Assembly (NCBI RefSeq): GCF_011039135.1
Contig: NZ_JAAKEJ010000003.1
Location: 1-64,000, forward strand
DNA: 64,000 bases
DNA from: Desulfovibrio sp. ZJ209
GTDB taxonomy: Bacteria > Desulfobacterota > Desulfovibrionia > Desulfovibrionales > Desulfovibrionaceae
Direction of reading: 5' to 3'
A program made the position numbers and the translations under genes. The first letter of the stretch is position 1, and each line of letters opens with the position of its first letter. Shown here piece after piece: positions 10,587 through 35,779 of the stretch. The notes beneath the pieces are model-generated. The model saw nothing but the letters and a program-made list of their open reading frames with translations, had not been told where the DNA came from and did no database searches.

Positions 10587-10626
10587 GCCCGATTTTCGCC
10601 ACGCCCACCTCACATAAGGACGACGC

Positions 10627-12135: not shown

Positions 12136-12159
12136 GCAAGAAAACGCCTGAACAACAGA

Positions 12160-12200: not shown

Positions 12201-12221
12201 TATATCCGGGAAGGGCGGGTA

Positions 12222-12734: not shown

Positions 12735-12829
12735 GGGGTTTCTCCTTTGGCGCAGATAGCTGCGTTTTTTTGCGTCATTCGTGGATCGCACATCCGCGCC
12801 CCCCGCAGGGGAGCGGACAGCGCGGACGC

Positions 12830-12858
12830 AGCATAGGGCCAAGCGGCCGTCTTGACAA
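12830..12858 (-). promoter_or_regulatory. Sigma-70 promoter of the ferritin gene
   Basis: On the minus strand TTGTCA (12858-12853) and TATGCT (12835-12830) are spaced by exactly 17 bases, about 95 bases upstream of the ferritin ATG. The leader between contains a run of seven T/A bases but no clear Fur box that I can see. Confidence 0.65.
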
Positions 12859-12894
12859 GTGCGCCGGGGGAGGCCCGGGGCGCGACAGGCCGGC

Positions 12895-13548: not shown

Positions 13549-13559
13549 GCCATCCCCGC

Positions 13560-14840: not shown

Positions 14841-14890
14841 GAAGTCTCCTTAGCGAAGGCTTGGTTCTGCTTGCGCGTGGTTGTGCACCT

Positions 14891-14923
14891 GTCTTCCGCT
14901 TCGCTCCAGACGGAATGAAGGAA
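14891..14923. repeat. Short fragment of the dispersed repeat
   Basis: The hairpin segment GTCTTCCGCTTCGCTCC (14891-14907) plus AGACGGAAT and AAGGAA is shared with 16921-16953 apart from one or two bases, and its first 24 bases with 61908-61931. It sits alone in the 126-base gap between the aldo/keto reductase start and the CMD gene stop. The arms TCT...AGA form the inner part of the stem seen complete at 61905-61931. Confidence 0.65.
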
Positions 14924-14966
14924 TATCCAATCCCCCTATTGCGTTACAGCCAGACACAAAAGCGGT

Positions 14967-19585: not shown

Positions 19586-21046
19586 CTAGCCGGTGGGGCC
19601 GCCAGCGTCAATGCCGGGCCGGGCGCCCGTGTCTTCCTCGAGCTCCCGCGCCGTCTCAAAGGGCGGCGGCGGCCGCCAGCGCCAGAAGAGCGCCAGCAGG
19701 GGCACAAGGCCCGCGAGCTCGGCCGCTTCGCGCGGGAGCATGAGCCCCACGCCCCACCACAGGCCCACGCTGAGTGCGGCGCACGCGCCCATGAGCAGCC
19801 ACTGTGCGGCTGTCATGGGCCTGGCGGCCCACTGGAAATAGCTCACCGTGAGCACCGCCACCCAGACCTTGGTGATGGTCAGCGAAAGCGCCGCGCCCGT
19901 GAGCGGGCTCGCCGGGATGAGGGTGCAGCAGCAGATGAGGTTGACCACAAGCCCGCTCAGGTAGAAGCCGAAGAGCAGCGTGTGCTTGCGCATGCCGATC
20001 ATGGCATAGGCCGCAAGATTGTGCAGGAAGGCCGTGGCGAGGCAGGGCGTGAGCAATTGCTGCGCGGTCACGGCGCTGGCGTAGTCGGGCCCGTAGATGA
20101 AGGGCAGGAAGCGGTCGCTCTCCACGCAGATGAGGAAGATGATGGGCAGCGACGCGGCCCAGAGCGACCGCGCCGTCTGGCCGGCGAGGCGCCTGAAGGC
20201 CGCGCGGCTCTCCTGCCAGAGCTTCGCCAGCAGCGGAAAGATGACCTTGCCGAGCAGCGCGCTCGAGACGAGCACCGAGAGGCCCTCCACGGTCTCCCAG
20301 GCCACCCCGTAGCCGCCCACGTCCGCATTGCCGCCGTAGTTTTTCAGGAAGATGACGTTGACCTTGTTGTAGAACATGGCGCAGGCCGCCATGCCCGTGA
20401 AGATGAGGCCGTGCCGCATCTGGCGGGCGAGGTGCCCCATGCCGGCGAGGCCCACGCCCCGAAGCGGGTTGCGGCCGAGGGCGGCGAGCGAAAAGCCGAT
20501 GGCGAGCAGGGCCTCCAGCGGCTTGAAAAGCGCGATGGCGAGCGGCGGCGCGCCCACGAGCACGCACAGGATGCCGTAGCCCAGGCCGGCGAGCGCCGAG
20601 GGCACGCGGATGCGCATCTCCACATCCTGCCGGCCGCGCGCCTGGCAGAGATTGAAAAAGGAGTCGGCCACGGCGTCGAGCCCGAGGCCCGCGGCGATGG
20701 CGAGCACCACGAGCCGGAGCTCGGGGCTGTAGCCCTGCCAGCCGGTGACGAGCCATGTGACCGCAAGCGCCGCCGCGAGCACGGCGAGCTTGAGCCAGCT
20801 CACCTCGCCGAGCAGCGCCCGCGGGCGCGCCTCGCGCCGGGCAAAGGTGGAAAGGAGGAAGTCGTTGAGGCCCACGTCGGCCACGGTCTTGACGAGGTAG
20901 CCGAAGGTCAGCGCAAGGACGATCTGGCCGAGGATGTCCGGGCTTGCCCGGGCGAGCAGGATGGTGAACGCGGTCCAGGCGAGGTCGCGCGTCCACTGGG
21001 CGCCCAGGATGTAGCCGAGGCGCCGCGGTATGCTCTTCAGCTTCAT
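19586..21046 (-). CDS. MOP-superfamily (Wzx-like) polysaccharide flippase
   Basis: The 486-residue protein has about 12-14 hydrophobic helices and the polysaccharide-synthesis/oligosaccharide-flippase layout (GYLVKTVADVGLNDFLLS near 50, VFL and TFGYL-type motifs, FMFYNKVNVIFLKNYGG-like segment near 225). Wzx-type proteins move lipid-linked glycans across the inner membrane. Its ATG overlaps the stop of the periplasmic adaptor gene by four bases, an unusual partner for a flippase. It ends in an acidic, proline-rich cytoplasmic tail. It lacks the MurJ signature present in the murJ gene elsewhere in this window. Confidence 0.82.
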   Translation of the reverse strand: MKLKSIPRRLGYILGAQWTRDLAWTAFTILLARASPDILGQIVLALTFGYLVKTVADVGLNDFLLSTFARREARPRALLGEVSWLKLAVLAAALAVTWLVTGWQGYSPELRLVVLAIAAGLGLDAVADSFFNLCQARGRQDVEMRIRVPSALAGLGYGILCVLVGAPPLAIALFKPLEALLAIGFSLAALGRNPLRGVGLAGMGHLARQMRHGLIFTGMAACAMFYNKVNVIFLKNYGGNADVGGYGVAWETVEGLSVLVSSALLGKVIFPLLAKLWQESRAAFRRLAGQTARSLWAASLPIIFLICVESDRFLPFIYGPDYASAVTAQQLLTPCLATAFLHNLAAYAMIGMRKHTLLFGFYLSGLVVNLICCCTLIPASPLTGAALSLTITKVWVAVLTVSYFQWAARPMTAAQWLLMGACAALSVGLWWGVGLMLPREAAELAGLVPLLALFWRWRPPPPFETARELEEDTGARPGIDAGGPTG

Positions 21047-21984
21047 TTGGCGGCCGCTTGCCCGCCTCCGCCAAAGCGCACCACCGCCTTGAAGCCCGGC
21101 TTAAGCACAAGGTCGGGGTTGGCCACGGTGAGCTCCACCGTGTAATAGGAGGGGTTTGCCACGTTCATGTCCGTGGAGAGCCAGGAGATCTCGCTCACAA
21201 GGCCGGTGAACTTGCGGTCGCCCAGGGAGGGGATCTCCACCTGCGCCTTGTCGCCCACCTTGATGGTGTTCACGTCCGCCTCATAGACCGGCACCTGGAT
21301 GAGCACCGGGTTGAGCTGCCCCACCTGGATGGGCGCGGAATTGGCGGCCATGAGGTTGCCCGGGTTGAGGTTCGAGGCAAGCGACAGCACATAGCCCTTG
21401 ATGGGCGAGGTGAGCACGAGGGTCCGGGGCAGCTCCTCCCCTTCCCTGATGGGCTGCCCGAAGTAGCCCGAGAGCTCCTTGAGGCGCGCCGCGAAATTGC
21501 TCTCGGTCTTGCGGATGGTGGATTGCAAAAGTGCGATACGGTCGCGCACCGAGGCGACACTGCTTTCCAGCCGCGCCAGCGCCTGCTTGGAGCCCAGGCC
21601 CGAGGCCACCAGCTGCCGGGCCTTGTTGCGCTCCGCCGTGACCTGGGCGAGCTGGCGCTCCATGTCCAGCAGCTGGCTCTTGGAGCCCTCGGTGCCGGCG
21701 CCGGTGGTCACTTCGCGCTGGAGGATGCGCTCGGCCTCGTCCTGCAGGTGGTAGCGCAGAAGCGGCGAGCCGTCTTCCACGGCGTCGCCGGGCTTCACGA
21801 GCACCTCGTCCACCACGGAGTTGAAGGGGACGGGCACGGCGCGCGTGACCGTGGTCACCACCTTGCCCGTGAGGATGATGGCCTCCGCGGCGCGGGCCTC
21901 CCCGGCGAGCCAGAGGGAGGCCGCGCACACAAGCGCGGCCAGCGGCCACAGGAGGCCGCGCGGAAGGAGGGTTGCGCGATACAT
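21043..21984 (-). CDS. HlyD-family periplasmic adaptor (membrane fusion) protein
   Basis: The 313-residue protein has a signal peptide (MYRATLLPRGLLWPLAALVC, cleaved near AEARAAEA), then a lipoyl half-motif (VPVPFNSVVDEVLVKPGDAV), an alpha-helical hairpin (about 80-165), the second lipoyl half (IKGYVLSLASNLNPGNLM) and a beta-barrel domain. This is the layout of tripartite-system adaptors. The ATG at 21984 overlaps the outer-membrane factor stop by one base (TGATG) and is preceded by AAGGAGATCC. Downstream it overlaps the flippase. No RND or ABC pump is next to it, so the inner-membrane partner is probably the flippase, which is inference. Confidence 0.83.
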   Translation of the reverse strand: MYRATLLPRGLLWPLAALVCAASLWLAGEARAAEAIILTGKVVTTVTRAVPVPFNSVVDEVLVKPGDAVEDGSPLLRYHLQDEAERILQREVTTGAGTEGSKSQLLDMERQLAQVTAERNKARQLVASGLGSKQALARLESSVASVRDRIALLQSTIRKTESNFAARLKELSGYFGQPIREGEELPRTLVLTSPIKGYVLSLASNLNPGNLMAANSAPIQVGQLNPVLIQVPVYEADVNTIKVGDKAQVEIPSLGDRKFTGLVSEISWLSTDMNVANPSYYTVELTVANPDLVLKPGFKAVVRFGGGGQAAAK

Positions 21985-23501
21985 CAGAGGATCTCCTTGG
22001 CGGGCGGTCCGAGAAAGCGCTCCTGAAGCACAGTGGCCAGGTACATCCATTCGAGCTGGGCGAGCCTGTGTTCCAGTTCTGACTTGATGTAGGAAATGCG
22101 CGCGTTGACGGCCGCTTCCTCACGCTCGACAAGGGCCGGCAGCTCCACGGTGCCCTCGTCAAAGGCGATGCGCGCCTCGGTGAAGCGCATTTCCGCGGTG
22201 TCGAGGCGGATCTTCTGCAGCTTGAGGTCAGTTTCGGCAACACTCACGCGCTGCTCGGCCTGAAGCCATTTGTAGGAATACTCGGTGCGCCTGCGCGCCA
22301 TGTCGTGGAAGGCCTGGGCCTTCTTCATGCGCGCCGTCTGCACGCCGCGGTAGCGCCGCCCCCAGTCGAGCAGCGGGAAGTCGAAGTTCCAGTGGAGGAA
22401 GTAGTCTTCCTGGCCGTGGGGCGGCTGGTACTGGCCGGCCGGCGGCGTGTGGTTGACGTAGAACGACATGTTGGGCACATACTGCGCCCAGGCGAGCATG
22501 ATGTTGTAGTCGCCGAGCTTGAACTGGGCGCGGAGGAGCAGGTCGTCCTCGGTGGTGGTCCAGCGGTCTTCCCACTTGAGGGCGCGGCCGTCGAAGCCTT
22601 CCAGGATGGTATTGGCGCTCTCCGCGTCCACGTTGAGGCGCTGCTCCGGCTGCACCCCGGAGATGAGCTTGATGCGCGTACGGTCGATGGTTTCTTCCTG
22701 GCTGGACTTTTCCACGTTGAGTTCGCGGGCGCGCTGTTCCTGCCGGGCCACGTCCAGCGCCACGCCCTGGCGCCCCTCCACCGCCTCCACCTGCTGCCAG
22801 TAGCCCACAAGGTTGTCGCCCAGGGGCAAAAGGCTCTTTTGGGCCTCGAGGATGCGGCGTTTCGCCTCCAGCCTGAGATAACTCTGGGCAAGCTCGTAAA
22901 TCACGTCGCCCACGGCCTTGCGGTGCGTGGAAATGGCCACGTTGACCATGCCCTGCTGCACCTTGTTCTCAAAATAGGTGGCCACCGGGTTGGGGAAGGG
23001 CGCGTAGAAGTTGGTGCGCATCCTGGTGCGCCCGTAATCGCTCGGCGTGTTGCGCATGTCCATGTTGTAGCGCGTCAGGTTGTTGGACACGGTGAGGGTC
23101 ATGCGCGGCTCGGGCAGATACTTCCACGCCGCGTTGGTGCGCGCGAGCCGGTTGATTTCCAGTTCCACCGCGCTGTTCACGAGCAGGGGCGACTGCTGGA
23201 TGGTGAGGAAGACGCAATCCTCAAAGGTGAAGCGCTTGTCGGGGTCGTAGAGATTGGGGACGGCCTCCTCCAGCTTCTGCTTGTTCTCCACGGGCACGCC
23301 CGGGGCTTCGTCCAGCCAGTGCCTGGGCGGCAGCTCCGGCGACTTCATGCCCGCCTTGTTGGAGGAACAGGCCACGGCGAACAGCGCGAGGAGGAGAACC
23401 AGCAGGAGGGGCGCCGCGCGGCGCGGGCCGGCCGCCGTGGTGCGCCGGCTGCCGGCGGCTGCACGACCTTTGGCACGGGATACAGGAAAAATGTGCTTCA
23501 T
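21984..23501 (-). CDS. TolC-like outer-membrane-factor lipoprotein
   Basis: The 505-residue protein has an unusually long basic leader, a hydrophobic stretch and a lipobox ending at C45 (LLALFAVAC-SSNK). The body has the two long coiled-coil repeats of outer-membrane efflux proteins (about 115-280 and 330-495). It should form the trimeric outer-membrane channel. The MKHIFPV start at 23501 is chosen because AAGGA lies five bases upstream; the MSM start two codons earlier would overlap that site. The order outer-membrane factor, adaptor, flippase with overlaps indicates one export complex. Confidence 0.83.
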   Translation of the reverse strand: MKHIFPVSRAKGRAAAGSRRTTAAGPRRAAPLLLVLLLALFAVACSSNKAGMKSPELPPRHWLDEAPGVPVENKQKLEEAVPNLYDPDKRFTFEDCVFLTIQQSPLLVNSAVELEINRLARTNAAWKYLPEPRMTLTVSNNLTRYNMDMRNTPSDYGRTRMRTNFYAPFPNPVATYFENKVQQGMVNVAISTHRKAVGDVIYELAQSYLRLEAKRRILEAQKSLLPLGDNLVGYWQQVEAVEGRQGVALDVARQEQRARELNVEKSSQEETIDRTRIKLISGVQPEQRLNVDAESANTILEGFDGRALKWEDRWTTTEDDLLLRAQFKLGDYNIMLAWAQYVPNMSFYVNHTPPAGQYQPPHGQEDYFLHWNFDFPLLDWGRRYRGVQTARMKKAQAFHDMARRRTEYSYKWLQAEQRVSVAETDLKLQKIRLDTAEMRFTEARIAFDEGTVELPALVEREEAAVNARISYIKSELEHRLAQLEWMYLATVLQERFLGPPAKEIL

Positions 23502-23585
23502 GGACATCCTTGGGGCCGCATGAAGGCGGCCATGGTTCAAGCCCAGCCTGCCTTGGGCGCAGCGGGGGACCCGCTCGCGCACGCT

Positions 23586-26500
23586 TCAGGCGGTGCCAGC
23601 CTGCCGGGGCGTGGCCGGGCGCTCGAACTCCAGATGGTGCACGGTCAGCAGGGTCTCCCCGGCGGGGCCGGACACCTGGGCGTCAAAGCGCACCCGGGCG
23701 CCGTCATCCCAGGTGCGGCGCACCTCCAGCGTGCGGGCGCCTTCGGCCGCCCCCGGGCCAGCCCCCGGAAGCCCGAAGCGGATATAGCCCACGCCCTCAC
23801 AACGCCAGCCCGGAGCCGGGACCGCCGCCTCGGGCGCAGGGGCCGAAGTTTCCGCCTTGAGCACCAGAAGGGCGCCCTGCATGACCGCGGCCGTGAGCTG
23901 CAATGCGGAAGCATAGCCCCAATCCGCCTGCGGAGCAATGGGAAAGGCCGCGGCCGTGCCGGGCGCGAGGAGGCCCGTGTGGACGGCGAGCACATCGCCA
24001 TCCGCCGTGAAGGTGCGCGGCGCAAGCGCCGAGATGAGGCGCCAGTCCGGCCCAAGGCCGAGGCGCGCATAGAGCGCAGGGAGCGGCAGGGGGGCGCCGC
24101 CCTCACCGGGGGGAACGGGCAGCGGGGCCAGCGGCGGCGCGGGCCGCGGGCCCGGGGCCAAAAGGGCCATGGCCTCGGCGAAGGGCGCGAAGGTGTCCGT
24201 GTGCCGGCCATTGGGCGTGAGCTCGCGGATATCGAGGGCCGTGCGGCACATGCGCGTCATGGCCCCGTCGTGCATGATCCACGGCCGCCCGCGCGCGGTC
24301 ACGCGGCCCTCGCGGGTGATGCCCGGAGGAAGGGCGGGGGGCGCGAAAAAGCGCACATCGGAAAAGCCCGTCACCGTGAGCCACGGCAGGAGCAGCCGCG
24401 CGCCCTGCAAGAGGGCCAGCAGCGCGCGGGAGAAAGGCAGCCACGGCGCGCCCTCCGGGAGATTCCAGCCGCCATGCTGCAGCAGCGCCGGGTCCGAAAA
24501 GGCGGAAAACTGGCAGCCGCCCTGAAAAAGGCCGCTTTCCGCCGCAAGCGGGGGCTGCGAGCCCGCCCATGGCTCGGGGTACACGGGCGCGGATATTTCG
24601 GGCCTGTCCACAAGGGGCGCGTGCGCCGGGCGAAACCCCTCTTCGGCAACACTCCAGAGGACGGTCTCGCCCTTGCCGCGGAAAAGCTCGGCGGCGCAGC
24701 GGTCGCCGAGGGCGTCGCGCCCCAGGGGGCGCCCGTCGTCCAAAAGCGCCAGGACGGGCGCGGCCCCGGCGCCGGCCATGGCCTGTATCCAGCCGGAGAG
24801 GGGCGCCCCCGCCCCGCCGGCACGGACGGCCTCCGCCTGTTCCCTCGTGGCGCGAAAGCGGCGCAGGCAGGCGAACCATGGGCGGGCCCCCACATGCCCG
24901 GCGCGCCACGCGCCCAGGGCGACGGCGAGATCCGCGTCCGGCGCCGCGTCCTCATCGGCCAAAGCCCCGGCTGCGGGCACGAAAAGAATCCCATCCAGCC
25001 GGCCTTTGGCGGCCAGCAGGGCGTCCAGCGCCTCGGCAAGCGCCCCGGAGCTTTTCAGGGCGTCTTCCGCCAGCGGCAGGACGCTGCTCCCGGCCTTTTG
25101 GAGCGGCGCGCAGTCCGCCACAAGGCCCTGCGGCACGGCGAGCGTGGCCCCGAACGCGGCCGCGCCGTTCCAAAGCTCCGGCAAAAGCTCCCCGTCCAGC
25201 ACGCAGAGCACATAGACGCCGGCCGCCTCCACGCCGGGGCCCGAGCCCCCCGGGTCCAGCGGCAGGAGCGGAAGCGGGGCGCCGTCGCCCGCGGGCGGCG
25301 CAAGGCGCAGCAGGGGCGCAAAAGTCCCGCGCCGGGGGGGCCTCCGCGCGCTCCCTGCCTGCGGAACGCCCGGCGAGTTTTTGCGGCCCAGCAGGACGCG
25401 CACAAGGTCGCCCACGGTGCTTACCTGAAGCAGGTCTTCAAATTCCGCATGCACGCCGAGGCGGCGCTCCGCCTCCTGCAGGAGGAGCGGAAAGCGGCTG
25501 GAGCGCAGGGCGAGGTCATAGCGCAAATCCTGCTCCGGCCTGAGCGCGGCCGCGGGCCGGCCGCAGGCCTCGGCCAGAAGCTCCAGCACCTGCCGGGCCT
25601 TCTCCGCATCCTCCCCGAAAAAGGGTTCGGCGGGGGCGGCTTGCGGCACCGGCGCTGACGCCGGTTCGGGCGCGGGCCCCGGGGCCGCCCCTGCCTCCGC
25701 CGGCCGGAGCCGCGCGCCCACCTGGCGGATGGCGGGGAGGGGGAGATGCCCGAGCGCGTAGAGCCGTGCGCAGGCCTCGCGCATGGCCGTGACCTCGGCG
25801 CCCTTGCGGCCCGCGGAAAGGCAGAGCGCGCGGGGCTCGCAGTCGGCCACGAGGCCACAGAGCGTGTCCTGCGGCCCGAGCTCCAGGAATTGCCGGATGC
25901 CGTCGCGCCGCCACATGGCGTCCACGCAGTCCGTCCAGGCCACGGTGTTCTCGTCCAAATCGGTGATATAGCGGCAGATGGAGGGCTGGTCGCCGGGATA
26001 ATAGCCCGCGGTGATGCCGCTCAGCATGGGCACCCTGGCCGCGTGCATCTCGAGCGCCCCGAGCCTGCGCTGCGAGAGGTCGCGCAGGATGCGCATGCCC
26101 GGATGGTGGAAGGCGAGGCTCACATTGAGCACCATGGAGGGCACCCGGCGCTTGCGCAAGGCGGCGCGCGCCTCCTTGAGGGCCTCACGCGGGCCGCTCA
26201 GGATGAACTGGCGCGGCGTGTTGCGGTTGGAGACATAGAGGTCGGGCCACGCGGCGAGGGTCTCGTCGATGACGGCCGCTTCGGCATGCACGGCCATCAT
26301 GCCCGTGTCGCGCGTGGACGAAGCCTCGAGCTCGGCCATGTGCTCGGCGCGTGTGTCGAGGATGTACCAGGCTTCGGAAAGGCCGTAGATGCCGGAGAGC
26401 GAGAGCGCGATGAGCTCCCCAAGGCTGTGGCCGCAGAAGAGCGCCGGCGAGAGCCCCAGGGAGGCGAACTGGCACCACTGCGCGTATTCGAGGAGGAACA

Positions 26501-26945
26501 GGTAGGGGATTTGCCGCCGCGTATTGCCGATGGCCTCCATGTCGGTCTCGTCCATGAGGCCAAGGATGTCCCAGTCGGCGAGGGCGGCCACGCGGTCCAT
26601 GCCTTCGCGCGCGGCGGGAAAGTTGTCGTAGAGCTCGCGGCCCATGCCGGGCCAGAAGGAGCCCAGGCCGCAGCACATGACTGCCAGCGGCTGCGCCGGG
26701 GTTTCGGGCGCGAGCCAGATCCCGCGGGAGGCGAGGCCCTTGAGCGCTTCGGCGTCCGGCCCTGGCGGGAGGGCCGCCACCTCCTCGCGCCAGAGCGGCG
26801 ACAGGCTGCCGAGCCGCCAGAAAGCCCCGTTCTGGGAAAGGCGCGCATAACGCACGCCGTCGAGCGCCACGTCCTGCGCGGCGCCGGGGACGGCGGCCGG
26901 GTCACGGGAAGCGTCGGGCGGGCTGGGCTGTTCGTCCCTGGGCAT
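23586..26945 (-). CDS. Acyltransferase / acyl carrier / ketoreductase-like / dehydratase-like megasynthase without ketosynthase
   Basis: The 1119-residue protein resembles part of a type I polyketide or polyunsaturated fatty acid synthase. Residues 85-395 are a malonyl-CoA-type acyltransferase with GHSLGE (S174) and the second catalytic residue in AFHHPGM (H280). Residues 445-520 are a carrier domain. Its DLALRSSRF places S482 where the phosphopantetheine serine belongs, with Arg instead of the usual Asp before it. Residues 575-770 look like a ketoreductase-fold remnant (LDGILFVPAAG) without an obvious catalytic tyrosine. Residues 805-1110 resemble a double hot-dog dehydratase. No ketosynthase domain is present. 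The ATG at 26945 follows AGGA and starts a plausible protein; the much longer upstream frame is antisense to the divergent synthase. It heads the leftward export train. Confidence 0.75.
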   Translation of the reverse strand: MPRDEQPSPPDASRDPAAVPGAAQDVALDGVRYARLSQNGAFWRLGSLSPLWREEVAALPPGPDAEALKGLASRGIWLAPETPAQPLAVMCCGLGSFWPGMGRELYDNFPAAREGMDRVAALADWDILGLMDETDMEAIGNTRRQIPYLFLLEYAQWCQFASLGLSPALFCGHSLGELIALSLSGIYGLSEAWYILDTRAEHMAELEASSTRDTGMMAVHAEAAVIDETLAAWPDLYVSNRNTPRQFILSGPREALKEARAALRKRRVPSMVLNVSLAFHHPGMRILRDLSQRRLGALEMHAARVPMLSGITAGYYPGDQPSICRYITDLDENTVAWTDCVDAMWRRDGIRQFLELGPQDTLCGLVADCEPRALCLSAGRKGAEVTAMREACARLYALGHLPLPAIRQVGARLRPAEAGAAPGPAPEPASAPVPQAAPAEPFFGEDAEKARQVLELLAEACGRPAAALRPEQDLRYDLALRSSRFPLLLQEAERRLGVHAEFEDLLQVSTVGDLVRVLLGRKNSPGVPQAGSARRPPRRGTFAPLLRLAPPAGDGAPLPLLPLDPGGSGPGVEAAGVYVLCVLDGELLPELWNGAAAFGATLAVPQGLVADCAPLQKAGSSVLPLAEDALKSSGALAEALDALLAAKGRLDGILFVPAAGALADEDAAPDADLAVALGAWRAGHVGARPWFACLRRFRATREQAEAVRAGGAGAPLSGWIQAMAGAGAAPVLALLDDGRPLGRDALGDRCAAELFRGKGETVLWSVAEEGFRPAHAPLVDRPEISAPVYPEPWAGSQPPLAAESGLFQGGCQFSAFSDPALLQHGGWNLPEGAPWLPFSRALLALLQGARLLLPWLTVTGFSDVRFFAPPALPPGITREGRVTARGRPWIMHDGAMTRMCRTALDIRELTPNGRHTDTFAPFAEAMALLAPGPRPAPPLAPLPVPPGEGGAPLPLPALYARLGLGPDWRLISALAPRTFTADGDVLAVHTGLLAPGTAAAFPIAPQADWGYASALQLTAAVMQGALLVLKAETSAPAPEAAVPAPGWRCEGVGYIRFGLPGAGPGAAEGARTLEVRRTWDDGARVRFDAQVSGPAGETLLTVHHLEFERPATPRQAGTA

Positions 26946-27227
26946 GGGCGGGTCCTGCACAAAATTTTCCTGGCGGTGAAAAATCGCGGCGGAAAATCGT
27001 AGGCCGTATCCGGGCGCATGTCCAGCCCGGGCGCGCGGCCGGCGTCCCGGAAAGGCCCGGCACGCGTGCGGCGATGCCGTTCCGGGCACAACGGGCTTGC
27101 CTTGCGGGAGTGCTTGCGCTAGACATAAAGCGTCTATCGCCGTGGGTATTTCCCCCCGCGCTCCCCGACAAAAATCGTGCGCGGGGCGCCTCCCGTGCCG
27201 CACATAGTCATTTTTAAGGGAAAAGGC
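26946..27227. promoter_or_regulatory. Divergent intergenic control region
   Basis: This 282-base spacer separates the leftward megasynthase from the rightward alpha-oxoamine synthase, so both transcription units must start here or nearby. On the plus strand there is a weak candidate of TTGCCT (27097-27102) with TAGACA (27120-27125), 17-base spacer. A TTTTTAAGGG stretch just before the rightward ATG supplies the ribosome site. I see no palindromic operator with confidence. Confidence 0.4.
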
Positions 27228-28517
27228 ATGAAGAACGAGCACTCCGCCGCGCACGCGGCCGGGCAGCAAGACGCCAAGGGCGGCTTCAACCGCATGCGCT
27301 CCAAGCTCTCCTTCGAGCGCATGGTGGACCTCGCCGAAAGCATGGGCCTCGAAAATCCGCTCTTCGCCTGCCACGACCAGGCGGCCAAGGCCACCACCCT
27401 GATCAACGGCAAGGAATATATCAATTTTTCCACCTATGACTATCTCGACATCAATGCCCATCCCGAAATCACGGCCGCCGTGGCGGAAACCGCGGCGCGC
27501 TACGGCACCTCGGCCGGCGCGAGCCGCCTTGTGGGCGGCGAAAGGCCCCCGCACCGCGAGCTCGAGCGCGCCTTCGCCGACCTTTACGACGTTGAGGACG
27601 CCATCGTCTATGTGAGCGGCCACGCCACCAATGTGTCCACTCTGGGCTTCATGTTCGGCTCGCGCGACGCCATTTTCCATGACGGCCTCGCGCACAATTC
27701 CCTCGTGCAGGGGGCGCGCCTCTCCGGCGCCACCCGCTATTCCTACGAGCACAACGACTGCGACTCCCTCGAGGAGATGCTCAAGGCCCACCGCGCGGAG
27801 CACCGCTACGCCGTCATCGTCACCGAGGGCCTGTTCAGCATGGACGGCAACATCCCGGACCTGCCGCGCATCATCGAGCTCAAGAAAAAGTACGACTGCA
27901 TGCTCCTCGTGGACGAGGCCCACTCCCTCGGCGTGCTCGGCAAGACGGGCCGCGGCGTGCGCGAGTATTTCGGCATCGACCCCACGGACGTGGACATGTG
28001 GATGAGCACGCTCTCCAAGTCCATGTGCGGCTGCGGCGGCTTCATCGCCGGCCGCGCCGAGCTCGTGCGCTTCCTTAAATACGGCTCGCCGGGCTTCGTC
28101 TTCAGCGTGGGCATGCCGCCGGTCATCGCCACGGCCTGCCACAAGGCGCTCGAGATCATGCTGCGCGAGCCGGAGCGCGTGCACCGCCTCCAGAACATCA
28201 GCCAGTATTTCCTGCACTACGCCCAGGGCAAGGGCCTTGATACCGGCGCGGCCCAGGGCTATGCGGTGCTCCCGGTCATCGTGGGCGATTCGCTCGTCTC
28301 CGGCTTCCTCTCGCAGGCGCTCTTCAAGCGCGGCATCTATGTTATGCCCATCTCCTTCCCGGCGGTGAAGGAGGGCACGGCGCGCCTTCGCTTCTTTATC
28401 TCCGCCTCGCACACCGAGGAGCATGTGCGCGCCGCCGTGGACGCCGTGGCCGAAGAGTTGCCCCGGGCCAAGGCGCTGGTGGCGGAATACCAGGCGGCGC
28501 AGGGGGCCGCGAGCTGA
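27228..28517 (+). CDS. Alpha-oxoamine synthase (PLP-dependent, BioF/SPT/KBL-like)
   Basis: Enzymes of this family condense an acyl thioester with an amino acid, losing carbon dioxide, to give an aminoketone. The 429-residue protein shows the fold-type I features: TSAGASRLVGGE near 94-105, EGLFSMDG near 200, the PLP ring pair DEAHS (D229, H232), and the PLP lysine K264 in STLSKSMCGCGG. The surrounding STLSKS resembles serine palmitoyltransferase and acyl-carrier-dependent members more than BioF (usually TLGKA). The neighbour opposite encodes acyltransferase and carrier domains, so the donor may be a carrier-bound acyl group; this is inference. The ATG at 27228 follows AAGGGAAAAGG. It starts a five-gene train with overlapping genes. 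Confidence 0.85.
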   Translation: MKNEHSAAHAAGQQDAKGGFNRMRSKLSFERMVDLAESMGLENPLFACHDQAAKATTLINGKEYINFSTYDYLDINAHPEITAAVAETAARYGTSAGASRLVGGERPPHRELERAFADLYDVEDAIVYVSGHATNVSTLGFMFGSRDAIFHDGLAHNSLVQGARLSGATRYSYEHNDCDSLEEMLKAHRAEHRYAVIVTEGLFSMDGNIPDLPRIIELKKKYDCMLLVDEAHSLGVLGKTGRGVREYFGIDPTDVDMWMSTLSKSMCGCGGFIAGRAELVRFLKYGSPGFVFSVGMPPVIATACHKALEIMLREPERVHRLQNISQYFLHYAQGKGLDTGAAQGYAVLPVIVGDSLVSGFLSQALFKRGIYVMPISFPAVKEGTARLRFFISASHTEEHVRAAVDAVAEELPRAKALVAEYQAAQGAAS

Positions 28518-28525
28518 AGGCCGGC

Positions 28526-29860
28526 ATGCCCGCCCCAAAGATTCCCCCCGCCAGTGCCACGGCGACCGGCGCTGCCGGCGTCTGCGCCCCGGACGCGGCG
28601 CCCGCGCCCCCCCCGGTGGGCGCGCCCGTCATCGCCTACGTCCTCCTCTGGTTCCCCCTTTCCTCCGAGACCTTCATCTTCCGCGAGGTCGTGGAGCTTG
28701 GCGAGCTCGGCCTCGATATCCGCGTCTATACCATGTACGGGGCGGCGCTCAAGGGCTGCTCGCGCGAGATGCGCGAATACCCGGGGCCGGTCACGCGCAT
28801 GGGCGTGGCCGCGTTTTTCCGCATCTTCGGGGCCTTTTTCCGCGCGCTTGGCAAGAGCCCGCGCCTCGTCTGGCGGCTCCTGCGCGAGGGCTTTTTCCGC
28901 CGCATGCGCAATGTGGAGGCGCTTGGCGAGAACCTCTGGTGCTTCATGGCCGGCTTCCTGCTCGCCGAGGACTGCGCGCGCGACGGCGTGACGCTCATCC
29001 ACTCCTCCTGGGCCAACGGGCCGGCCACGGCGGCCTGGGTGGCCTCGCGCCTCACCGGCATCCCCTTCGCCTTCACGGGCCGCGCCGGCGACATCTATCC
29101 CGAAGACGGCCTCTTGCGCGAGAAATCGCGCGATGCGCTCTTCGTCCGCACCAACAATGCGGCCAACGTGGCGTGGCTTGCGCGCTTCTGCCCGCCCGAC
29201 GCCGAGGGCAAGGTGCGCCTTGTCTACAACAGCCTCACCTTCACCGAGCGCGAGCCCGGCGCGCTCCCCATGCAGCCGCCTTACAGGCTGCTCGCCGTGG
29301 GGCGCTTCGCCCGCACCAAGGGCTTTCCCGAGCTCATCACCGCGCTCGCCCGGCTTCGGCGCGAGCGCGTGCCCATGCGCCTCACCCTCGTGGGCGACGG
29401 CGCGTGGCGCGGGCGCCTCGTGCGCCAGATCCGCCGGCTCGGCCTCGAAAGCTGCGTCGACCTCCCGGGCTTCGTGCCCCATGACGAATTGCGCCGCTAC
29501 ATGCAGACCCACGACATGCTCGTGGTGCCGAGCGTGGTCCACAGCAATGGCGACCGCGACGGCATCCCCAATGTGATCATGGAGGCCCTGTCCATGGGCC
29601 TGCCCGTGGTGGCCACCGATGTCTGCGGCATCGCCGAGGTCATCCGCGACGGCGAGACCGGGCTGCTCGTGCCTGAGCGCGACCCCGCGGCGCTGGCCTG
29701 CGCCGTGCGCCGCCTGCTGGCCGACCGCGACCGCGCCCGGGCCATGGCGCTCGCCGGCCGCGATTTGGTGGAGGCCATGTTCGACCGCGCCCGCAATATC
29801 GCGGCCCTGCGCAATCTCTATGCGGAGGCTTCCGCCCCCGCGACGGAGGGCGCGCCATGA
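28526..29860 (+). CDS. GT4-family glycosyltransferase (first paralogue)
   Basis: The 444-residue protein has a GT-B fold. The N-terminal half starts IAYVLLWFPLSSETFIFREV, typical of glycosyltransferases in exported-polysaccharide loci. The C-terminal half carries AVGRFARTKGFPEL and the nucleotide-sugar-binding E-x7-E region (GIPNVIMEALSMGLPVVATD). It adds a sugar to a lipid-linked or other acceptor on the cytoplasmic side; donor and acceptor are unknown. It starts eight bases after the synthase stop. Its stop overlaps the deacetylase start by four bases (ATGA). It is clearly paralogous to the gene at 31008. Confidence 0.85.
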   Translation: MPAPKIPPASATATGAAGVCAPDAAPAPPPVGAPVIAYVLLWFPLSSETFIFREVVELGELGLDIRVYTMYGAALKGCSREMREYPGPVTRMGVAAFFRIFGAFFRALGKSPRLVWRLLREGFFRRMRNVEALGENLWCFMAGFLLAEDCARDGVTLIHSSWANGPATAAWVASRLTGIPFAFTGRAGDIYPEDGLLREKSRDALFVRTNNAANVAWLARFCPPDAEGKVRLVYNSLTFTEREPGALPMQPPYRLLAVGRFARTKGFPELITALARLRRERVPMRLTLVGDGAWRGRLVRQIRRLGLESCVDLPGFVPHDELRRYMQTHDMLVVPSVVHSNGDRDGIPNVIMEALSMGLPVVATDVCGIAEVIRDGETGLLVPERDPAALACAVRRLLADRDRARAMALAGRDLVEAMFDRARNIAALRNLYAEASAPATEGAP

Positions 29861-31011
29861 CGGCCCGGGCGCCGGCCCCGCGCCCCCCCGTCTCCCCGGA
29901 GCCGGGGGCGAAGCGCCCGCTGACGCTCGTCCTGAGCCTCGACGTGGAGGAGGAAGGGCTCTTCGGCGGCCGCTATGCCTGCCGCGCCCCGGGCGTGCGC
30001 AACACGGCGGCGCTCATGCGGCTCGCCCCGCTGCTCGGGCGCGGGGTGAGGCCCACCCTGTTCTGCGCGCACAGCGTCCTCACGGACGCGGCCTCCCGCC
30101 GGGTGCTCGCCCGCTTGCGCGACGACCACGGCGCGGAGATCGGCGCCCATCTCCACCACTGGAACACGCCCCCGCTCACGCCCGAAGCGGCGGCCGCGCC
30201 CGGCGGCATGCTCACGCGGGTGCCGGCGGCGGCCGTGCCGCGGGAGCGCATGGCCGCCAAGCTGGCCACGCTTTTTCAGGCGGCCGAGGTCTTTCAGGGC
30301 GCGCCCGTGACTTCCTTCCGCATGGGCCGCTGGGACTTGCACGCGCCGCTCTGGCCACTCCTCGCCGAACTCGGCGTGCGCTGCGACGCCTCGGTCAGGC
30401 CGCTCCACCGAGGCAAGGACAGCGTGGCCGGCCCCGACCATTTCGACGCCCCGGCCGATCCCTACTGGGTGGACGCGGGCCGGGCCCGTATCCTCGAGAT
30501 GCCGCTCACGGTGACGCCGCTCTTCCCCTGGCTGCCCGGGCTCTCGCGGGAGCTGCCCGCGGGGGCCGGCGCGGCCATGCAGGCCGGGCTCAGGCACTGG
30601 GGGGCGCTGGCGCTCCTGCCGGTGGAGCATCCGCTTGCGCTCCTCAAGCTCACCACCCTGCTCCACGCCGCACGCGGGGGCCGGGTGCTCTCGCTCACCT
30701 GGCATTCGTCCGAGCTCTTCCCCGGCGGCGCCCCGCATGTGCCGGACGAGGCCACGGTCACGCGCTTTCTCGACAAGATGTGCGCCTATGCGGACTGGCT
30801 TGCCGAGAGCTTCGACCTGCGCTTCCGCACGCTCGAAGAATTGCGCCGCGACGCCGAAGCCGGGGAACTCCGCGTGGATGAGGCCCCCGCCGACTCCGGC
30901 GACTGGACGGCGCCCGCGACGGGCGAAAACCGCGCCGCCGGCACCGCGAGGCCGGCCATGGAACGCGCGGGCGTCCCCTGGGAGCGCCCCGCCGGGGAGG
31001 GCCGGCCATGA
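29857..31011 (+). CDS. WalW-like polysaccharide deacetylase
   Basis: The 384-residue protein has a NodB-type deacetylase core. The general-base aspartate motif is SLDVEEEGLF (D29), and the zinc-binding segment is GAEIGAHLHHWNTPP (H98, H100, H101), followed by a RMGRWDLHAP motif and a late WHSSELFPGG. WalW-type members usually read HLHPW; here a histidine replaces proline. It should remove acetyl from an N-acetylated sugar and expose an amine. There is no signal peptide, so it probably acts in the cytoplasm before export. It overlaps both neighbours by four bases. The 55-residue tail after 330 is low-complexity and rich in A, G, P, E. Confidence 0.78.
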   Translation: MTARAPAPRPPVSPEPGAKRPLTLVLSLDVEEEGLFGGRYACRAPGVRNTAALMRLAPLLGRGVRPTLFCAHSVLTDAASRRVLARLRDDHGAEIGAHLHHWNTPPLTPEAAAAPGGMLTRVPAAAVPRERMAAKLATLFQAAEVFQGAPVTSFRMGRWDLHAPLWPLLAELGVRCDASVRPLHRGKDSVAGPDHFDAPADPYWVDAGRARILEMPLTVTPLFPWLPGLSRELPAGAGAAMQAGLRHWGALALLPVEHPLALLKLTTLLHAARGGRVLSLTWHSSELFPGGAPHVPDEATVTRFLDKMCAYADWLAESFDLRFRTLEELRRDAEAGELRVDEAPADSGDWTAPATGENRAAGTARPAMERAGVPWERPAGEGRP

Positions 31012-32399
31012 GCCTTTTCCCGCGCCTCACCAGGCCCGCGCCGGGCTGCGCCTGCGCCGACCCGGGGCTGGCGCCCCTGCCGCCGGGCCTGCCCCATGTG
31101 GCCTATGTGCTGCTCTGGTATCCGCTCTTCACGCAGCCCTTTATTTTCCGCGAGGTGGAGGCCCTGCGCGAGCGGCTGCCGCTCACGGTCCACACGCTCT
31201 ACGGCCGCAATCTCCGCCACTGCTCCGATGAGATGCAGGCCCGGGGCGCCCACGCGCGGCCGGGCGGCATCCGGGCGCTGCCGCGCTACTGCCTCGAACT
31301 TCTGCGCCAGCTGTGCACCCATCCCGTGCGGCTCTGGCGCCTGTTCCGCCGCAGTTGCTGGCGCCGCTGGCAGAGCTGGGAAGTGCTGGGCGAAAATCTC
31401 TGGGCCTTCCTGGCCGGCCTTTCGCTGGGGCGCGAGTTCCGCGAGGGCGGCATCGACCTTGTGTACGCCCCTTGGCCGCGCGGCGCGGCCACAGCGGCCT
31501 GGGTGGCCGCGAGCGTGGCGAATCTTCCCTTTGCCACGGCCGCGCGCGGCGACAATCTCGCCCCGGCCGACCCGGACCTCGCCGACAAGTTCGCGGCCGC
31601 GGTGCTCGTGCGGGCCAACAACGCCGCGGACAAGGCCCGCATCGAGGCCTTCGGCGCCGGCGAGGCCGCGGGCAAGACCGCCCTTGTGTACAACGGCCTC
31701 ACCCTGCCCGCGCCCGGCCCCGAGGTGACGGACGGTTCCGCCCGCTTCCTCCCCGGGCCGCTGCGCCTGCTGGCCGTGGGCCGCTTCGACGTGACCAAGG
31801 GCTTTGACGTACTCCTGCGCGCCTGCGCCCTGCTCAAGCAGCGCGGGCTCGACTTCCGCCTCACCCTCGCCGGCGGGGGCGGCAAGGTCATGGGCCTCGG
31901 CAACATGGAAGACCAGCTCCGCCGGCTGCGCACCGAGCTCGGCCTCGCGCAGGATGTGGACATGCCGGGCCTCATCTCGCACAACGAGCTCCCGGGCCTG
32001 CTCGCCGGGCACGACATCTTTCTCGCGCCCTGCGTGGTGCACGCCTCTGGCCGGCGCGACGGCATCCCCAACACGGTCATCGAGGCCATGGCCTACGGCC
32101 TCCCGGTGGTGGGGACCACGGTCAACGCGCTCCCCGAGGTCATCCGCCACGGCGTGACCGGCCTTGCGGTGCCCCCCGACGATGCCGAAGCACTCGCCGA
32201 CGCGGTGCTGGAGCTCGCGGAGGACCCTGCCCGCGCCCGGGCCATGGGGCGCGCGGGCGCGCGCCTGGCGAAGGAAATGTTCGACGCGGAGGCCAACGCG
32301 GACCGGCTGGCGCACCTTTTCCGCACGGCCTGTGAAGACTGGCGGCGGGAGCAGGGGAAGGACGCCGGACGCAAAGGAGCGGACACATGTGCGGTATAG
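31008..32399 (+). CDS. GT4-family glycosyltransferase (second paralogue)
   Basis: The 463-residue protein shares its order and many motifs with the gene at 28526: AYVLLWYPLFTQPFIFREVE at the N-terminus, LLAVGRFDVTKGFDVLL in the middle and the E-x7-E region GIPNTVIEAMAYGLPVVGTT. An added loop (GGGGKVMGLGNMEDQ) is present in the C-terminal half. The two genes probably arose by duplication and add different sugars. It overlaps the deacetylase by four bases and runs 13 bases into the asparagine synthase-like gene. Nothing indicates a signal peptide, so it should act at the cytoplasmic face. Confidence 0.85.
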   Translation: MSLFPRLTRPAPGCACADPGLAPLPPGLPHVAYVLLWYPLFTQPFIFREVEALRERLPLTVHTLYGRNLRHCSDEMQARGAHARPGGIRALPRYCLELLRQLCTHPVRLWRLFRRSCWRRWQSWEVLGENLWAFLAGLSLGREFREGGIDLVYAPWPRGAATAAWVAASVANLPFATAARGDNLAPADPDLADKFAAAVLVRANNAADKARIEAFGAGEAAGKTALVYNGLTLPAPGPEVTDGSARFLPGPLRLLAVGRFDVTKGFDVLLRACALLKQRGLDFRLTLAGGGGKVMGLGNMEDQLRRLRTELGLAQDVDMPGLISHNELPGLLAGHDIFLAPCVVHASGRRDGIPNTVIEAMAYGLPVVGTTVNALPEVIRHGVTGLAVPPDDAEALADAVLELAEDPARARAMGRAGARLAKEMFDAEANADRLAHLFRTACEDWRREQGKDAGRKGADTCAV

Positions 32400-34393
32400 C
32401 GGGCATGGTGCGCCTTGACGGCGGCGCCCTTGCGCCGGGCGCGCTCAGGGCGCTCAAGGCCATGACCGACAGCATGATCTCGCGCGGGCCCGACGGCGAG
32501 GGCTTCTGGCGCGAGGGCCCGGTGGCGCTCGGGCACCGGCGCCTCTCCATCATCGACCTCGCGGGGGGCAGTCAGCCCATGCGGAGCGCGGACGGCCGCT
32601 TCTGCGTGGTGCACAACGGCGAGATTTACAATTTCCGCGAGCTTCGGCGCGAGCTCGAAGCCGGCGGCGCCCGCTTCCGCACCGACTCGGACACCGAAGT
32701 GGTGCTCGAGGCCTATGCCGCATGGGGCGAGGAGTGCCTTTCGCGCCTCGAGGGCATGTTCGCCTTTGCCGTGTGGGACGGTCCCAGGCGGCGCCTTTTC
32801 TGCGCGCGTGACCGCTTCGGCAAGAAGCCCTTTTTCTCCACCCTCCAGAACGGCGTGTTCTGCTTCGCCTCCGAGCTTTCCGCGCTCTCCCTGCTCGCGC
32901 GACCGCTCCCCGCAAACGCGTCCGCGCCGTCTGGCGTGCCCGAAGGGGCCGCGCCCTCGGACTTCCTGCCCTTCCGCTTCCATCTCGACCCCGCGGCGCT
33001 CATGCGCTACCTCGCGTATGAATATGTGCCCACGCCCGGCACCATGTATAGCGAGGTCAAAAGCCTCGAGCCCGCGCATTATTGTATGGTGGAGACGGGA
33101 AAGGACGCGGAGCCCGCGCCCGTGCGCTACTGGGACCTGCCCATGCCCGCGGGCCGGCAGCCCGCTGACGAGGCGGAGCTCTGCCTTGAGCTCGAACGGC
33201 TCATGGCGCAGGCCGTGCGCCGGCGCCTCGTGAGCGACGTGCCGCTGGGGGTCTTTCTGTCGGGCGGCATCGACTCCTCCATCGTGGCCGGGCTCATGGC
33301 GCGCGAGTCGTCCACGCCGGTGATGAGCTTTTCCATCGGCTTTACCGAGGCGAGCTACGACGAGTCGCGCTATGCGCGCATCGCGGCCACGGCCTTCGGC
33401 ACCGAGCATCATGAGCGCATCCTCTCGGCCGAAGAATGCGCCGACGAGCTGCCCGGCATCGTGAGCCGCATGGACGTGCCCATGGCCGACGCCTCCTGCG
33501 CGCCCACCTGGCTGCTCTCGGGCGTGGCGCGCGAGCGCGTCACCGTGGCCCTCGGCGGGGACGGCGCGGACGAGCTCTGGGCCGGCTACGAGCACTACAT
33601 CGGCTACCGCATCGCGCAAAAGTACAATGCCCTCCCGGCATGGCTCAGGCGCGGGGTCATCGAGCCCATCGTGCGGCATTTGCCCGAATCCTCGGGCTAT
33701 ATCAATCCGCGCCTCGCCTGCGAGACCTTCCTGCGCGGCGCGGCCGCGCCGGACTGGCTGCGCGTGCAGACCATGCTCACGGCGCTCGGGCCGGACATGC
33801 AGCGCGAGGTGCTGGCGCCGGCGTGGCTCGCGGCCCACGGCGGCGAGGCGGCGCTGGCGCCAGAGGCGCTGTTCGCGCCCACCCGCGCCCAGTACGGGCA
33901 CTGGCTGCCCAAGGGCGCTGCGGCGCCGCTCTCCCGCGCCTTCCATGTGTATGTGCGCCAGTTCATGCTCGACGACATCCTCGTCAAGGTGGACCGCTGC
34001 TCCATGCTGCACTCGCTGGAGGTGCGCGCGCCCTTCCTCGACCGCGAAGTGGCCGAATTCGCCGCCAGGCTCCCCGTGAGCCTGCGCCTCCACGGGTTCA
34101 AGCGCAAGTACCTGCTCAAGAAGGCCTTTGCCGGGCTGTTGCCGCCGGAGATATTGCACCGCAACAAGCGCGGCTTCCAGATCCCGGTGGCGGAATGGCT
34201 CAGGGGCAAGCTCAGGCCGCTCATGGACGAGCTGCTCGGCGAGCGGGCCTTGAAAGAACAGGGCCTGTTCGACCCGGCGGCGGTGCGCCGCCTCGTGGAG
34301 GCCCACTGCGCCGGGCGGGCCGACCTGCGCAAGCCCCTGTGGACGCTCATGGTGCTTGAGCTCTGGCTTAGGGCCAACCCGGCGGAGTTCTGA
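32387..34393 (+). CDS. asnB: AsnB-type glutamine-dependent amidotransferase
   Basis: The 668-residue protein has an N-terminal glutaminase domain with the nucleophile Cys2 (MCGIAGMV) and the SRGPDGEG motif, then a C-terminal synthetase domain with the ATP pyrophosphatase loop VFLSGGIDSS near 292. It is longer than ordinary AsnB and has a proline/alanine-rich insertion near residues 170-190. Homologues in exopolysaccharide loci (for example the exosortase-associated amidotransferase group) amidate unknown acids rather than make asparagine. Here it follows two glycosyltransferases with a 13-base overlap, so a modification of the exported molecule is likely. An AAAGGAGCGG site precedes its ATG. 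No exosortase or PEP-CTERM protein is seen in the window. Confidence 0.85.
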   Translation: MCGIAGMVRLDGGALAPGALRALKAMTDSMISRGPDGEGFWREGPVALGHRRLSIIDLAGGSQPMRSADGRFCVVHNGEIYNFRELRRELEAGGARFRTDSDTEVVLEAYAAWGEECLSRLEGMFAFAVWDGPRRRLFCARDRFGKKPFFSTLQNGVFCFASELSALSLLARPLPANASAPSGVPEGAAPSDFLPFRFHLDPAALMRYLAYEYVPTPGTMYSEVKSLEPAHYCMVETGKDAEPAPVRYWDLPMPAGRQPADEAELCLELERLMAQAVRRRLVSDVPLGVFLSGGIDSSIVAGLMARESSTPVMSFSIGFTEASYDESRYARIAATAFGTEHHERILSAEECADELPGIVSRMDVPMADASCAPTWLLSGVARERVTVALGGDGADELWAGYEHYIGYRIAQKYNALPAWLRRGVIEPIVRHLPESSGYINPRLACETFLRGAAAPDWLRVQTMLTALGPDMQREVLAPAWLAAHGGEAALAPEALFAPTRAQYGHWLPKGAAAPLSRAFHVYVRQFMLDDILVKVDRCSMLHSLEVRAPFLDREVAEFAARLPVSLRLHGFKRKYLLKKAFAGLLPPEILHRNKRGFQIPVAEWLRGKLRPLMDELLGERALKEQGLFDPAAVRRLVEAHCAGRADLRKPLWTLMVLELWLRANPAEF

Positions 34394-34497: not shown

Positions 34498-35355
34498 ATG
34501 ACCAGCCAGCTCAAGACCATGTTCCTGCTGGCCCTGCTTTCCGGCATCATCATCGTCCTCGGCGGCCTGCTCGGCGGCCGGAGCGGCGTCATCCTCGCCT
34601 TCGGGCTCGCCATCGTGATGAATGTCGGCAGTTACTGGTATTCGGACAAGATCGTGCTCTCCATGTACCACGCGCGGGAATTGACGCCCGAGGAGGCGCC
34701 CTATTTGCACGACATCGTGGGCGAGCTCGCCCGCAACGCGGGCGTTCCGAAGCCCCGCGTCTGCGTCATCCCCGAGGAGGCGCCCAACGCCTTCGCCACC
34801 GGGCGCGACCCCGCGCATGCCGTCATCGCCGTCACCGAGGGCATTTTGCGCCTCCTCTCCCCCACGGAGCTGCGCGGCGTGGTGGCCCACGAAATGGGCC
34901 ATGTGGTCAACCGCGACATCCTCATCCAGACCGTGGCCGGGGTCATGGCCTCGGCCATCGTGACGCTGGCCAATATCTTCCAGTTCACGGCCCTCTTCGG
35001 CGGCCACCGCGACGGCGAGGGCGGCGGCAACCCCATCGGCGCGCTGGTGCTGGCCCTGCTGGCTCCCATGGCGGCCGGCCTCATCCAGATGGCCATCTCG
35101 CGCTCGCGCGAATTCCTCGCGGACGAGACCGGCGCCCGGCTCTGCGGGCAGCCCCTGGCGCTGGCCGGCGCGCTCTACAAGCTCGGCCAGGCGAGCGGCA
35201 GCATCCCCATGCGCTCCGGCAACCCGAGCACGGCCGAGATGTTCGTCGTGGCGCCGCTCTTCGGGCGCGACGGCGGCGTGGCCAAGCTCTTCAGCACCCA
35301 CCCGCCGCTTGAGGAACGCATCGAGCGCCTGCGCGTCATGGCCGAGCATGGCTAG
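34498..35355 (+). CDS. htpX: Membrane zinc metalloprotease HtpX
   Basis: HtpX degrades misfolded inner-membrane proteins and is part of envelope quality control. The 285-residue protein has two N-terminal helices, the zinc motif HEMGH at 131-135, two more hydrophobic segments, the third ligand region SREFLADETGA, and a late STHPPLEERIERL typical of the family. A strong AAGGAGG site precedes the ATG, and a promoter candidate lies 50 bases upstream. Its last eight bases overlap the start of the small lipoprotein gene, so they are translated in coupled fashion. Confidence 0.93.
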   Translation: MTSQLKTMFLLALLSGIIIVLGGLLGGRSGVILAFGLAIVMNVGSYWYSDKIVLSMYHARELTPEEAPYLHDIVGELARNAGVPKPRVCVIPEEAPNAFATGRDPAHAVIAVTEGILRLLSPTELRGVVAHEMGHVVNRDILIQTVAGVMASAIVTLANIFQFTALFGGHRDGEGGGNPIGALVLALLAPMAAGLIQMAISRSREFLADETGARLCGQPLALAGALYKLGQASGSIPMRSGNPSTAEMFVVAPLFGRDGGVAKLFSTHPPLEERIERLRVMAEHG

Positions 35356-35779
35356 GCCGCTGCGCTGCGCCAAACTGGCCGCGCCGCTTGCGCTTGCCCT
35401 CGCGCTCGCGGGCTGCGGCGGGGGCCGTCAGGAGCCGCCCCTCCAAGCCCCGGTTCCCCCGGAGGACTGCGCCGCGCTCTACGTCGTGGCGCCGGGCAAC
35501 TATATCGTCGACCTCGCCGGGGGCGCGGCCGTGGTGCTGGACCCCTCGGTGCGGGAATTTCCGCTCTTTTGCGCGCCCGAAACCGCCGCAAGGGCCCTTC
35601 AGGCCGGGCAGGATGCCGGGCGCCTCCCGGCTGGCGACTGGCGCGTCTACCGCCTTGAAGGCGGCTTCGCGGAGCTCGTGCAGCCGGCCGAGGCCGGCGG
35701 CCCCAGCCCCTATGCGCTGGCCCGGCGGGCGCGCCTCGCCGACTGGGTGAGCGCCGACGGAAGCGAGGAGGGAAGATGA
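35348..35779 (+). CDS. Small lipoprotein of unknown function
   Basis: The 143-residue protein starts MARPLRCAKLAAPLALALAL and has a lipobox ending at C23 (LALAGC-GGG). The mature part contains two further cysteines (in PPEDCAALY and FPLFCAPE) that could form a disulfide, and no family I recognise. The ATG at 35348 overlaps htpX by eight bases. Upstream in-frame starts lie deep inside htpX and would bury the signal. Its stop overlaps the FkbM gene start (ATGA). Residues after Gly24 have +2 Gly, so the lipoprotein may be sorted to the outer membrane. Confidence 0.7.
   Translation: MARPLRCAKLAAPLALALALAGCGGGRQEPPLQAPVPPEDCAALYVVAPGNYIVDLAGGAAVVLDPSVREFPLFCAPETAARALQAGQDAGRLPAGDWRVYRLEGGFAELVQPAEAGGPSPYALARRARLADWVSADGSEEGR

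Follow-up and report, generated by a model that had tools for sequence, protein, structure and literature searches.

A divergently oriented gene pair in the genome of Desulfovibrio sp. ZJ209 (2.70 Mb) encodes a synthase-like protein of 1119 residues without a ketosynthase (KS), here termed MEGA, and an alpha-oxoamine synthase (AOS). The pair was found in nearly all genomes of the genus, and we favour, with moderate confidence, its assignment to the initial stage of a pathway of sphingolipid type. Pairs of a polyketide synthase (PKS) and an AOS are already described (rkpA/rkpG, wcb and SgaAB). The initial annotation knew of no described pathway with such a pair; given these precedents, what is new is the KS-free form. 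Its observations were borne out, and its interpretation was supported in part.

Organization of the MEGA-AOS locus

The window analysed is a stretch of 64,000 nucleotides, in which the locus comprises the following features.

19586-21046, minus strand: MOP-superfamily (Wzx-like) flippase (domain search, locus comparison)
21043-22050, minus strand: HlyD-type periplasmic adaptor (domain search, locus comparison)
21984-23582, minus strand: outer-membrane efflux lipoprotein, OEP (PF02321; the true start may be further downstream)
23586-26945, minus strand: MEGA, a KS-free protein with acyltransferase (AT), acyl carrier (ACP), pseudo-ketoreductase (KR) and dehydratase (DH)-fold regions (Pfam, AlphaFold2 model, orthologues in 60 of 61 genus genomes)
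26946-27227, no strand: divergent spacer, 282 bases between the two ATGs (one sigma70-like match, on the minus strand)
27228-28517, plus strand: PLP alpha-oxoamine synthase, AOS (orthologues in 60 of 62 genus genomes; K264 counted from the ATG at 27228)
28526-29860, plus strand: GT4 glycosyltransferase, EpsE/WcaL-like (domain search, locus comparison)
29857-31011, plus strand: NodB-like polysaccharide deacetylase with SLDVEE and HLHHW (assigned by eye, weak DUF3473 match)
31008-32399, plus strand: second GT4 glycosyltransferase (domain search, locus comparison)
32387-34393, plus strand: asparagine-synthase-type amidotransferase, AsnB, of XrtA-EPS type (domain search, locus comparison)

The order is flippase-HlyD-OEP-MEGA, divergent from AOS-GT-deacetylase-GT-AsnB. 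The shared region between MEGA and AOS was confirmed to span 282 bases from ATG to ATG, with RBS-like sequences preceding both start codons; neither a terminator-like site nor KS coding sequence upstream of MEGA was found within it. The export genes noticed beside the pair proved to be the MOP flippase, HlyD and OEP. This trio (19586-23582) always followed MEGA in the examined loci, with the OEP gene always downstream of MEGA where the contig extends. No ABC or RND pump lay beside the trio, which may possibly form an unusual MOP-flippase/adaptor/outer-membrane-channel exporter. A gene for an HtpX protease and a small lipoprotein-like gene (34498-35779) followed AsnB in most species where the contig extends. 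Elsewhere in the window, a low-GC stretch (58746-59585) contained an ORF without the GC3 bias of the other genes.

Domain composition and residue conservation of MEGA

The following parts of MEGA were delimited, all on the minus strand.

26694-26876: remnant of the KS-AT linker subdomain, residues 24-84 (model against PKS KS-AT structures, alignable from residue 28)
25746-26693: malonyl-type AT, residues 85-400, with S174, R199 and H280 (PF00698, residue conservation)
25392-25616: ACP, residues 444-518, with the phosphopantetheine serine S482 in DLALRSS (PF00550, serine in 37 of 37 homologues, helical in the model)
24636-25325: pseudo-KR, Rossmann-like, without the NADPH motif (motif check, model)
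23610-24608: double-hotdog DH fold with a variable catalytic His (Z up to 24 against PKS dehydratases)

Pfam assigned only an AT (residues 91-358, E 2e-28) and a phosphopantetheine carrier (residues 452-517, E 3e-6) to MEGA and did not detect the KS models PF00109/PF02801, in agreement with the initial description of a KS-free protein carrying an AT with S174 and H280 and a carrier-like domain. The AlphaFold2 model of the full-length protein (pLDDT 83, pTM 0.82) consisted of an AT with the KS-AT linker retained, a helical carrier, a Rossmann-like region and a double hotdog. In structure alignment the N-terminal part matched PKS AT domains, KS-AT linker included, at Z up to 40, and the C-terminal part, modelled separately (pLDDT 87, pTM 0.89), aligned with PKS dehydratases. 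Among named relatives, the closest to emerge was a Desulfovibrio MAG, whose homologue is 83% identical. The reading of MEGA as a broken-off piece of an RkpA-type PKS was rejected, since AT similarity to such PKSs was just weak.

Residue conservation was scored over 37 aligned MEGA homologues. The AT serine S174 was conserved in all 36 homologues covering the position, the malonyl-type arginine R199 in 36 of 37, and both the AT histidine H280 and the carrier serine S482 in all 37. Relative to the window protein, mean identity reached 67% in the AT and 59% in the ACP and dropped to 28% in the KR-like and 38% in the DH-like region. The ketoreductase-like remnant proposed initially thus stands as a Rossmann-like region, but without the NADPH motif, which is present in the KS-containing homologue L061; in four species the region has shrunk to 48-74 residues. 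Likewise, the dehydratase proposal holds for the fold but not for the catalytic His: that of the KS-containing homologues (DHKPY/DHRPY) is substituted in many MEGA members, and MEGA was accordingly rejected as an active dehydratase. Compared with type I polyketide/fatty acid synthases of SgaA/RkpA type, MEGA has neither a KS nor a catalytic-type KR or DH, and its conserved S174, R199, H280 and S482 are those expected of an active-type AT and ACP. Because the AT and ACP residues are near-invariant, the KR NADPH motif is lost and the DH His is variable, only the AT-ACP part appears active, and the KR and DH regions are probably vestigial scaffolds rather than modifying enzymes. This persistence of the AT and ACP during decay of the remainder argues for the sphingolipid assignment, for which the malonyl-type arginine, conserved in a protein without a KS, is an odd feature that counts against it.

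Ketosynthase-containing homologues and the source of a ketosynthase

In a family-wide sample, MEGA was present in 38 of 38 genus members versus 9 of 209 other genomes. Five of these nine hits were frames of 2.4-2.7 kaa of a long, KS-containing type, as were most phylum-wide hits outside the family (2.4-2.7 kaa), two hits being in shorter frames. As homologues outside the genus are mostly of the long type, the absence of a KS is probably derived, having arisen in Desulfovibrio and its near relatives. Pfam resolved the long synthases of L061 and L064 as NMO-KS-AT-ACP-KR-DH. In the L061 cluster (5569-15704), which L062-L065 from other Desulfobacterota resemble, genes for a PPTase, a GNAT-like protein and an epimerase-type SDR come after the long synthase, with an AOS gene farther along. 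The neighbourhood is comparable at most of the other long-synthase loci of the family, where GT and AsnB homologues are close by, and in five genomes of the same family the long synthase sits with homologues of the ceramide synthase CerS and mostly also of the ceramide reductase CerR. These loci seem to be ceramide-type clusters with their own type I synthase. The L061-L065 synthases have an AT-ACP homologous to that of MEGA at 30-36% identity, including the RSS motif of the carrier, and their associated CerS-, CerR-, GT- and AsnB-like genes are mirrored in the window genome. Unlike MEGA, they have a KS and an intact KR motif, and their partner is an AOS of serine palmitoyltransferase (SPT) type rather than RkpG type. 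An SPT-type AOS was carried by 10 of the 11 long-synthase genomes tested. Both this association and the placement of a homologous AT-ACP beside PPTase, CerS- and CerR-like genes favour the sphingolipid assignment.

The proposal that a KS is supplied elsewhere did not survive in the form of a dedicated enzyme. The genomes G009 and G010 each encode just one PF00109 KS, apparently FabF, which ruled out a dedicated KS elsewhere in the genome; the window genome has two. Since no dedicated KS co-occurs with MEGA, any KS acting in trans would be a housekeeping one, most likely FabF.

Affiliation of the AOS

The AOS is intact, with K264, VDEAH and TARLRFF aligning with Kbl, BioF and Spt; the PLP lysine therefore stands as initially assigned. 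A PLP Lys, DxxH and carboxylate-binding Arg place it in fold type I, in agreement with its PDB matches. It is 48-54% identical to the AOSs of capsule-type PKS loci from Pseudomonas, Caballeronia, Sinorhizobium and Shinella, a range that also includes second loci of some Desulfovibrio, and ~31% identical to SPTs. In the phylogenetic tree it fell with full support inside the clade of PKS-partner AOSs, apart from the Spt proteins of E. coli and Pseudomonas. Among NCBIfam models it scored below every cut-off, SPT models included, the best score being that of BioF; a BioF or KBL identity was not supported by the tree. The AOS does not group with characterised-type SPTs by sequence, and its distance from them and its NCBIfam scores count against the sphingolipid assignment. 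On the other side, the AOS partner in one described PKS-AOS pair, PfSgaB, has been proven to be a serine palmitoyltransferase and prefers L-serine almost exclusively (PMC12134224). The tree was built without the PfSgaB sequence, whose place in the PKS-partner clade is presumed, and by this analogy the grouping would favour a sphingoid product.

The same distance from SPTs leaves some room for an AOS that uses alanine, glycine or cysteate and yields a 1-deoxy- or sulfono-type lipid instead of a serine-based ceramide. Work on the Black Sea ties 1-deoxyceramides and sulfono-1-deoxyceramides to Desulfobacterota and/or Bacteroidota (PMC11334938), and a cysteate fatty acyltransferase structure is among the PDB relatives of the window AOS. 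The near-exclusive serine preference of PfSgaB speaks for serine, and the AOS substrate is not readable from sequence here; we regard a different amino acid as possible but unlikely.

Like MEGA and its AOS, PfSgaA/PfSgaB of Pseudomonas fluorescens MYb115 combine a carrier-bearing type I synthase with an AOS, in that case with a proven sphingoid product (PMC12134224). SgaA is by description a complete iterative PKS. MEGA differs in lacking a KS and a functional KR and in its decayed DH, and a comparison with other PKS-AOS pairs showed no close relationship to PKSs of the SgaA type.

CerS and CerR homologues and the comparison with capsule loci

In the window genome, a CerS-like GNAT gene lies beside a CerR-like SDR gene next to pyrD, in the pyrD operon on another contig, so that both homologues expected of a bacterial ceramide pathway are present in the same genome. 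The CerS homologue was found in 47 of 47 MEGA-positive family genomes, and also in D. piger. The GNAT is 30-36% and the SDR 27-36% identical to cluster-defined CerS and CerR, and relatives of the GNAT are located in spt-acpR-cerR-aasR loci of Pseudomonas and E. coli, clusters that match the ceramide genes of Caulobacter (PMC11324152). CerS/CerR family membership rests on this homology to the spt clusters; no match to the CerS homologue was obtained from the PDB. Constant co-occurrence with MEGA supports the sphingolipid assignment, and low identity to the characterised type and lack of linkage to the pair weigh against it. The sphingoid-like aminoketone lipid proposed initially would fit both the AOS clade and these co-conserved homologues. 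As a separate observation, E. coli YghO (L197, 4754-5896), encoded near spt and annotated just as protein YghO, is 63% identical to a Pseudomonas sphingolipid-cluster CerS, and 4088 of the 5426 E. coli genomes had a match to the spt-acp region.

In the rhodobacterial Spt-AcpR-AasR-CerR-CerS system, the SPT is proposed to use a dedicated carrier, and CerS and CerR are homologous to those of Desulfovibrio (PMC9386255, PMC11324152). There, AasR loads AcpR, a small free-standing ACP, whereas the Desulfovibrio carrier resides inside MEGA together with an AT; no free AcpR or AasR was found among the genes around the AOS, which belongs to another clade than rhodobacterial Spt. Proteobacterial SPTs favour acyl-ACP, with chains held on a dedicated carrier (PMC9386255), and MEGA would play the role of such a carrier.

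The affiliation of the AOS also raises the alternative of a lipid product that anchors or primes a cell-surface polysaccharide, a role suspected for rkpA/rkpG and wcb (PMC3908369; L101-L105 here), with the CerS/CerR homologues serving something else. The AOSs of those loci belong to the same clade at 48-54% identity and have polysaccharide genes nearby, and the window AOS is adjacent to glycosyltransferase, deacetylase, amidotransferase and flippase genes. However, the rkpA/wcb-type PKS is a complete KS-AT-DH-ER-KR-ACP (Pfam on L101 and L103) accompanied by capsule-type genes, whereas MEGA is KS-free and no KpsM/KpsT or KpsC/KpsS capsule ABC-export genes were found among the window genes scanned, so that the pair does not lie in an ABC-type (group 2) capsule locus. 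Furthermore, CerS accompanies MEGA in all 47 family genomes, and certain species possess a distinct capsule locus with a PKS-AOS pair besides. We therefore consider a polysaccharide anchor rather improbable. Some Desulfovibrio carry an extra complete PKS with a second AOS (L092, L093, L094, L098, L099 and L100), the second AOSs being 50-58% identical to the window AOS; in L092 and L094 the additional pair adjoins capsule ABC-export-like genes.

Conservation and co-occurrence of the pair

MEGA was present in 60 of 61 Desulfovibrio genomes and an AOS orthologue (65-94% identity) in 60 of 62, the two genomes without one being 63% and 80% complete. The genes are usually divergently adjacent; in several species they lie on separate contigs or ~16 kb apart, both still present. 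The pair also occurs in D. piger ATCC 29098, and one genome (G007) has two copies of the MEGA-AOS-GT-deacetylase-GT-AsnB locus (L041 on C21 and L071 on C2). The expectation that the pair co-occurs in related genomes was thus borne out essentially genus-wide, and its retention even when unlinked argues for the sphingolipid assignment. That MEGA acts with the OEP-HlyD-flippase export genes and the AOS separately with the glycosyltransferases is very unlikely: MEGA-OEP-HlyD-flippase does stay intact in genomes with a relocated AOS, and AOS-GT-deacetylase holds together independently, but both genes occur in nearly all species, usually divergently adjacent, and long MEGA homologues share their genomes with an SPT-type AOS in 10 of 11 cases tested.

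Proposed pathway

In the sphingolipid-type pathway that we propose, MEGA would be a reduced descendant of a KS-AT-ACP-KR-DH synthase that lost its KS and whose KR and DH decayed. Its malonyl-type AT would charge the ACP, which would hold an acyl thioester for the divergently encoded AOS, the chain most likely coming from the housekeeping fatty-acid synthase. Either FabF would condense onto malonyl-ACP of MEGA, or the AT would directly transfer a finished acyl chain. The malonyl-type Arg suggests malonyl-CoA, in which case FabF would be needed in trans, as no other KS is conserved. The AOS would then condense the acyl chain with an amino acid, probably serine, to a 3-keto-sphingoid base, which the CerS-like and CerR-like enzymes may N-acylate and reduce to a ceramide-like lipid. 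A head group would probably be attached by the two GT4 enzymes, deacetylase and amidotransferase encoded next to the AOS, and export of the product would probably fall to the flippase-HlyD-OEP trio. Judged from gene content, Desulfovibrio probably make a sphingolipid-like, possibly sugar-bearing lipid. The full scheme is put forward more tentatively and may well not hold: a KS-less synthase skeleton, near-universal in Desulfovibrio including its gut species, that charges itself with acyl groups and carries them to an AOS, with a head-grouped ceramide exported by an ABC- and RND-free flippase-HlyD-OEP trio.

Implications

Sulfate reducers such as D. piger and D. desulfuricans are common in the gut, and sphingolipids of bacterial origin have known effects on hosts. 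The open literature searched yielded no account of sphingolipids made by Desulfovibrio. If the proposal is true, a widespread gut genus would join the sphingolipid producers, with specific genes to delete. The KS-less carrier would represent another feed into the formation of sphingoid bases, in addition to acyl-CoA, AcpR/AasR and complete iterative PKSs, and a synthase could lose its chain-building activity yet persist as a carrier.
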